Below are positions 10,426 through 13,411 of a stretch of 35,958 nucleotides of DNA, piece by piece; the stretch's first letter is position 1; each line of letters starts with the position of its first letter. Source of the DNA: Candidatus Altimarinota bacterium (GTDB taxonomy: Bacteria > Patescibacteriota > Gracilibacteria > JAHISY01); NCBI GenBank assembly GCA_028690585.1, contig JAQVAZ010000009.1, positions 1 through 35,958 of the forward strand. The letters run 5' to 3'. The position numbers and the translations under genes are program-made. The notes under the pieces are model-generated. The model was not told the origin of the DNA, did no database searches, and saw only the letters and a program-made list of their open reading frames with translations.

Positions 10426-10679
10426 CAAAAAGAGAGTTACTAGGTCTGTAGAAGCTGCGGAGGAGTAGGGAATTTCCCTACATTCTCCTAATTCTAAATT
10501 GTTACAATAAGTGCGCATTTACGCACTAACTGTTAACAAATCTTTTTGTGAAAATTAGGTTTTCTTCACTGGTGAAAGCCAAATTCTCATGAATTTCACT
10601 AGATTACTTTGTTTTGCAGGAATTTTTATAACTTACCAAAAACAAAAACCTCCCGCCTACGGCGGAAGAACTTTGTTTG

Positions 10680-10741
10680 TGGCGCGGAAGACCCAGCCTT
10701 CATCCGCCAAGGCAGATTTCGGCGGGCAGGCGGGACTTGAA
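10680..10741 (-). pseudogene. Partial tRNA-Asp copy (acceptor and T arm), interrupted
   Basis: Bases 10680-10691 plus 10731-10741 match, without mismatch, the CCA end, acceptor 3' strand and start of the T arm of the tRNA-Asp at 10889-10965. The copy is split by a 39 nt insertion (10692-10730). Similarity ends after the T-loop side, so no functional tRNA is possible. Confidence 0.65.
10692..10730. repeat. 39 nt palindromic element, copy 1
   Basis: Begins CCCAGCCTTC and ends TTCGGCGGGCAGG, with a central self-complementary segment (ATCCGCC / GGCAGAT with one G-U pair). It shares both ends with the 30 nt element at 11024-11053 but has a different centre. It sits cleanly between the two halves of a partial tRNA-Asp copy with no target duplication. 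Confidence 0.7.
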
Positions 10742-10852
10742 GTTAGCTTCATGTTTTCTACTAATTTAAAATTTCTACGCGTGTCGCCACGAAACCGCTT
10801 ACTTAAAATAAGATTCCTACCCCGCGCGAGTTTGCGCCAGCCTTCCCATCAT

Positions 10853-10877
10853 GAAAAACAACCCCGCTAAGGCGGGG
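10853..10877 (-). terminator. Rho-independent terminator of tRNA-Asp
   Basis: On the minus strand CCCCGC, loop CTTA, GCGGGG is followed by TTGTTTTT, starting 11 bases after the CCA end of the tRNA. Confidence 0.75.
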
Positions 10878-10888
10878 ATTATTTTACA

Positions 10889-10965
10889 TGGCGCGGAAGA
10901 CGGGACTTGAACCCGCGACCTCTGCCGTGACAGGGCAGCGCTCTAACCAGCTGAGCTACTCCCGC
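10889..10965 (-). tRNA. tRNA-Asp (GTC)
   Basis: A complete 77 nt cloverleaf on the minus strand. Acceptor GCGGGAG pairs with CTTCCGC (one G-U). The D arm is GCTC...GAGC. The anticodon stem CTGCC/GGCAG encloses loop CTGTCAC, giving anticodon GTC. The T arm is GCGGG-TTCAAGT-CCCGT with a terminal G-U pair, then discriminator G and an encoded CCA. A terminator follows at 10853-10877. AT-rich sequence with TAAAAT boxes lies upstream, but I could not fix a promoter. Confidence 0.95.
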
Positions 10966-11015
10966 GTAGGAGTTGAGAAATTGCTTAGTTTTTTATTTTA
11001 GTTTGTAGATTTTAT

Positions 11016-11064
11016 CCAGCTGACCCAGCCTTCGTTTCACTTCGGCGGGCAGGGCTACTCTCGC
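11016..11064 (-). pseudogene. Partial tRNA-Asp copy (5' acceptor and D arm), interrupted
   Basis: Bases 11016-11023 and 11054-11064 match the D arm and 5' acceptor strand of the intact tRNA (10947-10965) with one mismatch (CTC for CCC), and ten flanking bases (GTAGGAGTTG) are also shared. The copy is split by a 30 nt palindromic element (11024-11053). Confidence 0.65.
11024..11053. repeat. 30 nt palindromic element, copy 2
   Basis: Begins CCCAGCCTTC and ends TTCGGCGGGCAGG, like copy 1 at 10692-10730, but has a short centre (GTTTCAC). It is inserted exactly between A and G of a tRNA-Asp D-arm sequence, with no target duplication. Confidence 0.7.
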
Positions 11065-11134
11065 GTAGGAGTTGGGATGATGCTTCCGAAAAGGAAGCCG
11101 GGTAATTTTAGCGAAATTTGGTTTTTCCGCAAAT

Positions 11135-13411
11135 CTAAAGAGTGCGTACAATCTTTTCTTTCTTCCAAGCCTGGAGAATGTCGCCTTCTTGGATTTTGGC
11201 TTTCGATAGACTGAGTTTCAAACCACACTCGAATCCTTCTCTTACTTCTTTGGTATTCTCAGCACCGCGCTTCAGGCTGCTGATTCTGGATTCATCGATT
11301 AGCTGATTATCTCGGAGAATCCTCACATTCGCACCCAGCTGGATTACTCCACTCTTCACCATTCCTCCGATAGTTTGCTCTTTACCTTTCACGAAGAAAA
11401 TTCCTCTCACTTCCAATTCTCCCAGCTGAGTTTCGATTTCCTCAGGATCAAGCATGCCACTCAGCATCTTCTCGATCTCTTCTAGAATCTTATAAATAAT
11501 CGTGTGTTGGCGGATGCTGACTCCTTCTCGGCGCGCAAGCTTATCTACTTGCGGTGGCACTTTCACATGGAAAGCGATTACCAATCCATCGGCGGCGGAA
11601 GCCATCAATACATCGGTTTCAGTTACATTTCCCACGCTTCCGTGAATCACTTTAGCTTTCACTTCTGCGCTACCAATCTTCGCGATGTTTTCACGCAGCG
11701 CTTCCAAGCTTCCTTCCACATCAGTTTTCAAAACAATCTTTAACTCTTTCAGATCACCAGTGTTAATTCTATTGATAAGCTGACTCATACCACTCGCTTT
11801 TTCTTTGGTGCTGATTTCCATCAAGCGTTTTAGCTCTTGCGCTTTCTTGCGAGCCACTTCCGCATTCGGCAAAACTTGGAGAATTTCTCCAGCGCCTTGC
11901 TCAGGCGCGCCAGTGAGTCCTGCAATTCTGACTGGAGTGCTTGGTGGCGCTTCCTTCATTGATTTTCCGTTGTAATCAAACATCTTCTTCACTTTTCCCA
12001 CTACTGGCCCAATCACAAAATTATCTCCGATATGCAGAGTGCCAGTATTTACCAACACAGTTGCTACCGGTCCAAAAGATTTATCCAAGCGCGATTCAAT
12101 CACGGTGCCGATAGCTTCACGGTTTGGATTCGCCTTCACAGGGTCGATATCATTTGTCAGCAAAACTACTTCCAACAAATCATCCACGCCTTGGCCAGTC
12201 AGCGCGCTGACTCCAATCATCTCAGTTTTGCCACCCCAATCACTGGCTTGCAAATCAAACTCTGCGAGTTCACCTTTTACTTTATCGATATTGGCACCTG
12301 GTTTATCGATCTTCGTAATCGCAATTATGATTGGAATCTTCGCATCTTTCGCATGGTTAATCGCTTCCACGGTTTGAGGCTTCACTCCTTCTTCTGCTGC
12401 CACCACGATTATCGCGATATCTGTCGCCCTTGCGCCTCTTGCGCGCATCGTAGTAAACGCTTCGTGGCCAGGAGTATCGAGGAAAGTAATTTTTCTACCG
12501 TTGTGCTCCACTTGATAAGCGCCGATGTGTTGCGTGATTCCGCCAGCTTCTCCACCCACCACATTCGTTTTTCTTATCTTATCGAGGAGTGTAGTTTTGC
12601 CGTGGTCGACGTGGCCCATCACCGCTACGATTGGTGGGCGAGGCTCCATCTTTTCCTCATCATCCTCGAGGAGTTTTGCGATATTACCTTTCAAAATTTC
12701 CTTACCACTGACTGCTGCGCTATCGCGGGAAACCTTACAACCGAAGGCTTCACACACGATGGTAGCAGTATCAAAATCGATAATCTGAGTGAGGTTTGCC
12801 ATCACTCCATTTTTCAATAATTCTCCCACCACGCGAATCGGGCTGACACCCATCTTCTCACCCAACTCTCTCACACTCACTGCATCACCGATTTTGATTT
12901 CTCCGTGAGTAGCCGCAGTTTGCTGGCTAGGAGTTTTCATTACCTCTTCGATTTTTTCTTGCTGGCGAGTCAATCGCTTCACGCTATCTTTCTCCATCTT
13001 CTTCACTTTGCGCTTCAATAAATCCTCACTCGCGCGTTTGGCCCTAGCCCATCTGGCGCGCGCCGCCTCTTGATCCGCGCTGACTTTTGGTGCTGCGGCT
13101 GCTGCAGGTTTCGCTGTTTCTGTAGTGGTTTTCGTTACTTCAGTTTTTGGCTGCGCAGCTGCTTCTTCTTTCTTTTCGATCTCTACTTCCTCTACTTCTT
13201 CATCATCTTCAAAAAACATTCCCATCAATTCTTGCGTTTCTTCATCTTGGATTTTGCCATCTTTCACTTTAGCTTTCAGATCTTCAAAAATCTTATCCGC
13301 TTTCGCAGCTTCGATTTCCTTCGCATTTTCTACCACACCAAAATTCTTCAGTTGCAAACGCAAATCATCCGTAGAGATTTCGAGTTTTCGGGCGAGGTCA
13401 GAAACGCGCAA
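11135..13411 (-). CDS. infB: Translation initiation factor IF-2
   Basis: 758 residues. The GTPase that positions initiator tRNA on the 30S subunit and promotes subunit joining. An IF2_N helix-turn-helix (1-50) is followed by an acidic and Ala/Lys-rich linker (65-165) and a second IF2_N-like segment (about 170-225). The G domain has GHVDHGKT (266-273), DTPGHE (312-317) and TKID (366-369). Threonine replaces the usual Asn of NKxD, a tolerated variant. Domains II, III (EGSLEAL) and IV follow. The start is TTG at 13411; an in-frame TAA lies just upstream, and [13 protein letters not shown] is the expected N-terminus. No Shine-Dalgarno is visible. It stands alone rather than in the usual nusA-infB-rbfA operon. 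Confidence 0.96.

Follow-up and report, generated by a model that had tools for sequence, protein, structure and literature searches.

Palindromic elements within partial tRNA copies and tRNA-linked GIY-YIG genes in a gracilibacterial genome

Partial copies of tRNA-Asp downstream of infB

The window (the whole 35,958-nucleotide stretch that was analysed) carries an intact tRNA-Asp(gtc) gene with an encoded CCA on the minus strand (10889–10965), which is recognized by both ARAGORN and Rfam (RF00005, 70.5 bits) and is the only intact tRNA-Asp at the locus. In minus-strand order, infB, which encodes IF-2 and is the upstream syntenic neighbour (11135–13411; TIGR00487, 674.6 bits), is followed by the 9-nt sequence AACTCCTAC (11065–11073), a split 5′ copy of the tRNA, AACTCCTAC again (10966–10974), the intact gene, a spacer of 147 nt, a split 3′ copy and a terminator-like hairpin that lies immediately 3′ of the CCA of this copy (10636–10679). 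A preliminary description of the locus had placed a 3′ piece to the left and a 5′ piece to the right of the intact gene, an arrangement that the sequence confirms.

The 3′ copy extends over 23 nt from the T-loop to the CCA and is identical to the end of tRNA-Asp at 23 of 23 positions. Its first half, TTCAAGTCCCG (10731–10741), and its second half, TCTTCCGCGCCA (10680–10691), both on the minus strand, are separated at the junction of the T stem and the acceptor by a 39-nt palindromic element, CCCAGCCTTC-ATCCGCCAAGGCAGAT-TTCGGCGGGCAGG (10692–10730, no strand assigned). The 5′ copy matches nt 1–19 of the tRNA at 18 of 19 positions and shares with the intact gene the nine upstream bases. Its first part, GCGAGAGTAGC (11054–11064, minus strand; 10 of 11 against nt 1–11), and its second part, TCAGCTGG (11016–11023, minus strand), beyond which the copy decays, are parted within the D stem (GTAGC|TCAGC) by a 30-nt palindromic element, CCCAGCCTTC-GTTTCAC-TTCGGCGGGCAGG (11024–11053, again without assigned strand). 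Excision of either element rejoins the tRNA sequence with zero bases lost, and the flanks of both are free of the target-site duplications that mark DNA transposons and MITEs, which bears out the earlier claim of base-precise boundaries; by inspection, both elements belong to a no-loss class of insertions. The accompanying claim that both insertions follow an A holds for one placement only, as the boundary of the left, 39-nt element can be shifted by one base, a C lying on either side, so that two placements are equivalent.

The spacer (10742–10888, minus strand) consists of a terminator-like hairpin that starts from the CCA and a sequence, termed element E, that ends in GAAGCTAAC. The conserved sequence in these 147 nt was overlooked in the earlier reading. 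A sequence model (R1) matches element E at C28:10739–10841 with an E-value of 2.9 × 10−17, the set from which the model was built having included this copy, and the spacing of the spacer is identical at tRNA-Gly(ccc).

The infB–tRNA-Asp locus is syntenic in three genomes, that of the window (G000) and two relatives (G001 and G004) in which an infB-like C-terminus lies next to tRNA-Asp. There are no tRNA copies at this locus in G001; in G004 there is a 5′ copy in which TCCGCCACGGCGGA replaces the D arm. The palindrome in the 5′ copy of the window differs from that of G004, and the window has a 3′ copy as well. Since the locus differs among the three genomes, the copies and palindromes are recent at this site. 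The absence of copies from G001 and the different palindrome of G004 also identify the tRNA-like flanks as duplicates of the tRNA that lie outside the repeat, contrary to a possibility raised in the preliminary description, namely that the flanks are part of the repeat itself.

Palindrome types and partial copies at other tRNAs

The window elements, 30 and 39 nt in length and hence within the 20–40 bp expected of REP sequences, are imperfect palindromes with the outer stem CCAGCC/GGCGGG interrupted by mismatches. Their folds are weak when considered alone (z from −0.2 to −1.4), and the sequence family outweighs folding energy as evidence for them. The exact ends occur at only two sites in the 1.05-Mb genome, both in the window, and a reversed control pattern gave no match in this genome. 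With relaxed ends there are 11 places, the two window elements and nine further relatives, with a common architecture of an outer CCAGCC/GGCNGG stem, a TTC/TWC internal loop and a variable inner hairpin; the concern that no other copies with the same ends might exist is therefore justified for the exact ends but not for the architecture. Six of the 11 start exactly at the CCA of an intact tRNA (Val-cac, Arg-tcg, Arg-cct, Thr-tgt, Ala-cgc and Lys-ctt), one lies at the CCA of a 3′ copy of Leu-caa and, besides the window pair, two lie outside tRNA ends. Six palindromes at six CCAs correspond to P ≃ 2 × 10−23 in a rough binomial estimate. Hairpins that start in this way pair the CCA with a downstream TGG in several tRNAs.

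Short repeats are rarely common to many phyla. The core GCCTTCGCCCTTCGGGCTNCGGCNGGC is matched in 38 stretches across many phyla; its CCA..TGG form adjoins the 3′ ends of tRNA-Met, tRNA-Ala and tRNA-Tyr in three genomes and lies beside tRNA-Ser in a fourth, and the commoner CCC..GGG form does not abut tRNA 3′ ends. The palindrome core GCCTTCGCCCTTCGGGCTnCGGCnGGC (L139–L176) is spread over genomes of many phyla. The lineage of the window is placed with Candidatus Peribacteraceae on the basis of flanks that are identical between L093, from genome G002 of the same family, and L170, a record named as Peribacteraceae. Chance hairpins were rejected as a source of the elements on the grounds of the palindrome families, the placement at CCA and the junctions described next.

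In a comparison set of six genomes of the order, many different tRNAs have 5′ or 3′ partial copies with GC-rich palindromes, and a script was used to find these palindromes and to read the positions of the parent tRNA on both sides. In the resulting junction table, the anticodon arm is exchanged for a palindrome with a loss of exactly 17 nt in copies of Gln-ctg, Gln-ttg, fMet, Ala and Pro, the D arm is exchanged with a loss of 15–17 nt in copies of His, Val, Ala, Phe, Asp and Asn, and about half a stem (5–9 nt) is lost in five copies. Palindromes of the CCTGCC..GGCAGG type are inserted without loss in five of six cases (Leu twice, Trp, Tyr and Leu-taa) and with a loss of 2 nt in Phe; those of the TCCGCC..GGCGGA and TCCCG..CGGGA types mostly replace the D arm or the anticodon arm. 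The palindromes are several unrelated types, each at characteristic positions in the tRNA copies. Clean insertion, as originally reported, is thus correct for the window but is not general, since the latter two types usually replace an arm or half-arm elsewhere.

Of 68 sites of the TCCGCC..GGCGGA type in the six genomes, 28 are at most 300 nt from a tRNA or a copy of one; in G000, seven of ten are at most 60 nt away (P ≃ 4 × 10−18 and 3 × 10−11, rough background fractions making these values good to an order of magnitude only). The remaining sites are in other DNA, those of G001 mainly in AT-rich intergenic regions. Together with the CCA positions and the junction table, these counts give a positive answer as to enrichment at tRNAs and tRNA fragments: tRNA-derived sequence is strongly over-represented among palindrome sites. 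The initial proposal that such sequence is the target of the repeat gains from this over-representation, but several types of palindrome are involved rather than one family with one target.

The 450 nt downstream of each of the 42 tRNAs of G000 were examined for copies of the last 23 nt of that tRNA. Such copies are present 147–266 nt downstream of five tRNAs with no mismatch and of two with one mismatch. Further tRNAs retain about the last 13 nt exactly, among them tRNA-Asp, where the exact match is confined to ∼13 nt because the palindrome splits the 3′ copy. Upstream of fMet and Gln there are 5′ copies without mismatches in which a perfect palindrome stands in place of the anticodon arm and which are adjoined by a small GIY-YIG ORF. 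Breaks in the remnants fall close to the D arm or within the anticodon loop or T-loop, and for Val, Phe, Asn and Asp the upstream flank is duplicated along with the start of the tRNA. The pieces seen in the window are accordingly recurring products beside many tRNAs (23 nt from T-loop to CCA, or 5′ parts), which the earlier reading had overlooked. Copies were looked for mainly near tRNAs and GIY-YIG genes.

The interval between the CCA and the 3′ copy usually comprises a terminator-like hairpin and conserved sequence that ends in GCTAAC or similar before TTC. A conserved structured RNA was considered for element E and rejected, as RNAalifold gave just the terminator stem and one short stem; owing to this scarcity of consensus structure, a model based on sequence only was built. 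It has 24 matches in G000 and one or two in each of five other members of the family; 54 further genomes of the class gave a single weak match. Element E occurs in a like arrangement at Val, Arg and Leu in G003 and G002. A tandem array of three E units, each with a tRNA-Leu-like 3′ end and a terminator hairpin, is present at C6:104746–105194 of G000 (L226), and no intact tRNA was found in the fetched locus around this array.

The stretch of a tRNA gene from T-loop to CCA is commonly exploited by integrases, and it is this stretch that the 3′ copies span. The loci could accordingly be remnants of tyrosine-integrase elements at tRNA 3′ ends, the 23-nt repeat being an att duplication and the palindromes later additions. 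The intervening DNA amounts to just ∼147–280 nt and encodes no integrase, as in the window, where no integrase gene lies in the 147 nt from the intact CCA to the 3′ copy; moreover, this DNA is partly alike at many different tRNAs, and the 5′ copies and arm swaps would be left unexplained. Such an origin is very improbable. Alternatively, the arm-swapped copies and the 147-nt element might be functional RNAs (tRNA mimics, trailers or decoys) with palindromes that are selected arms and not insertions. The replacement of arms by hairpins, with no plain deletion, the conservation of element E between tRNAs and genera and the pairing of CCA with TGG would all be in keeping with this. A functional role is nevertheless unlikely given that the copies are truncated, decaying and unlike between genomes at one locus, that element E shows little consensus structure past the terminator and that it exceeds the threshold outside the family only in the single weak match.

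GIY-YIG and RAYT genes

Of 32 small GIY-YIG ORFs in the six genomes, 20 are no more than 300 nt away from a tRNA (P ≃ 7 × 10−24 against a rough background), and these often adjoin a disabled copy of the neighbouring tRNA. Their catalytic domain is recognized by PF01541 with 53–65 bits (cut-off 22.6). The window contains no match to PF01541, all matches being on other contigs, and most 3′-copy loci have no GIY-YIG ORF. In a tree of these genes the clades match tRNA type across genomes and isoacceptors, with clades for Gln (G000 and G003), Leu (G003 and G004), Pro (G001 and G002) and Asn (G003–G005). The break points of the copies are uniform within a clade (the anticodon loop for Asn, about nt 25 for Leu and the T arm for Gln and Pro), and the insertion point of the GIY-YIG ORF varies between tRNA types. 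A young case of duplication is present at L210, where tRNA-Ile is followed by a GIY-YIG ORF and a second tRNA-Ile that is 100% identical over the last 61 nt to the CCA but carries a single disabling palindrome in its D arm. At L190, L192 and L196 the tRNA-linked GIY-YIG reading frames extend into the 5′ end of the tRNA gene, so that their last codons (GVAQW, GVAKW) are tRNA sequence.

Ordinary slippage or nick-and-fill-in could also duplicate tRNAs without a dedicated nuclease, leaving copies that are neutral junk and in which palindromes pile up where selection spares them. The duplication of upstream flanks with the tRNA start (Val, Phe, Asn and Asp), the many loci without a GIY-YIG ORF and the presence of palindromes in other intergenic DNA would fit such a process. 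It is however judged to be rather unlikely, because arm-exact substitution (17 nt in five tRNAs) is unexpected from random tolerated insertion and because neither the GIY-YIG linkage nor the tRNA-type clades are accounted for.

The preliminary description noted that no transposase is near. This is true of the window, and a transposase-encoding mobile element at this site was rejected for this reason, but the genome has two genes for REP-associated tyrosine transposases (RAYT; C5:3732–3971 and C37:2405–2644 of G000, L091 and L092; NF047646, 97.3 bits against a cut-off of 80) in addition to the tRNA-linked GIY-YIG genes. The suggested search for a linked REP-type transposase had a negative outcome, as the RAYT genes are flanked by an unlike repeat, GCAGGTTCAAGTTTGTAACTTGAACC, which is outside the palindrome families of the tRNA copies; transposition tied directly to RAYT was rejected on this account. 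The arm of GCAGGTTCAAGTTTGTAACTTGAACC resembles a tRNA T arm (GGTTCAAGT). Y1_Tnp-like domains also occur in two very long open frames of G000 (C40:10989 and C6:120439, L089 and L090; 1311 and 1063 aa).

A RAYT of Escherichia coli cleaves single-stranded REP DNA at GTAG, and some REPs are inserted within palindromes (PMC3733652). Many of the tRNAs concerned have a GTAG at the base of the D arm. The GTAG/CGTC tag is absent from the window elements; a GTAG occurs only in the tRNA sequence that flanks the element of the 5′ copy. Since GTAG in single-stranded hairpins is the site at which REP/RAYT systems act, and many tRNAs have this motif, RAYT is possibly the enzyme that moves the palindromes, by analogy and as a lead.

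A possible course of events and related systems

The duplicates, their exact boundaries, the enrichment, the GIY-YIG linkage, the tRNA-type clades and the empty sites suggest a repeated tRNA-directed DNA event. In the explanation favoured here, which has about an even chance of being correct, tRNA genes would repeatedly be duplicated in part, in linkage with GIY-YIG genes at several loci, leaving a single intact tRNA accompanied by a remnant of the 5′ or 3′ part. Homing-type GIY-YIG cassettes may cut tRNA genes, with repair leaving one working copy; cutting is proposed because a GIY-YIG ORF sits between the intact tRNA and the disabled copy at several loci. The redundant remnants would then acquire REP-like palindromes, perhaps as single-stranded hairpins that land on, or are exchanged for, hairpin arms of tRNA-like DNA; the RAYT of the genome could be involved. 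Movement as hairpins is suggested by three features: insertions that are clean and lack a target duplication, arms that are replaced exactly, and the GTAG motif at the base of the D arm. In a working tRNA, a palindrome would be tolerated only directly after the CCA.

Several observations argue against this explanation. The window locus lacks a GIY-YIG ORF, as do most 3′-copy loci; the RAYT-flanking repeats are unlike the palindromes of the tRNA copies, and the window elements lack the GTAG/CGTC tag; and many TCCGCC palindromes are far from tRNAs, above all in G001. Nor does classical homing account for an insertion point that varies by tRNA type and an intact tRNA that retains the presumed target. 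A more speculative and rather doubtful proposal is that an enzyme swaps a whole tRNA arm for a palindromic hairpin on single-stranded, cloverleaf-folded tRNA-gene DNA (or tRNA-derived nucleic acid) and so disables the copy made by GIY-YIG action, in which case palindrome, nuclease and duplicate would form one tRNA-parasitic system.

REP-like palindromes are among the commonest bacterial repeats, and their targets and movement are poorly known. As the parent is known, the tRNA copies reveal every base gained or lost, so that target preference and arm replacement can be read directly. The present elements resemble REP/BIME sequences with RAYT in being short, GC-rich, intergenic palindromes inserted without target duplication in a genome with a RAYT gene, and REP insertion within other palindromes has been reported (PMC3733652). 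They differ in lacking the GTAG/CGTC tag, in the different repeat that flanks RAYT and in their sites, which are tRNA copies with exact arm replacement. Small ORFs adjoining tRNA genes are also a feature of the free-standing GIY-YIG homing endonucleases of phage T4 (seg genes), of which SegB is listed at tRNA-Arg/tRNA-Ile with a tRNA intergenic target (PMC2988022). In contrast to the seg genes, the ORFs described here accompany many different bacterial tRNAs and show linkage to disabled copies of the tRNA in question.

In mitochondrial atp6 of Allomyces, an inserted homing endonuclease ORF reportedly carries in a duplicated end of the host gene as a substitute and supplants the resident piece; that case concerns a mitochondrial protein gene without palindromes rather than bacterial tRNA genes. 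The palindromic elements of Rickettsia are similarly inserted in genes of a reduced genome, but they are much longer and occur mainly in protein genes, and arm exchange is not known for them. A literature search on tRNA-linked GIY-YIG genes in CPR bacteria, on palindromes 3′ of tRNAs and on the palindrome core string found no description. The tRNA-type-specific GIY-YIG clades offer a system in which the association of nuclease genes with essential tRNA genes of ultra-small bacteria can be tested. One GIY-YIG ORF without a tRNA link (L182, on C2 of G000) is surrounded by dense tandem repeats of the CACTGCGA..GCAATGACA type.
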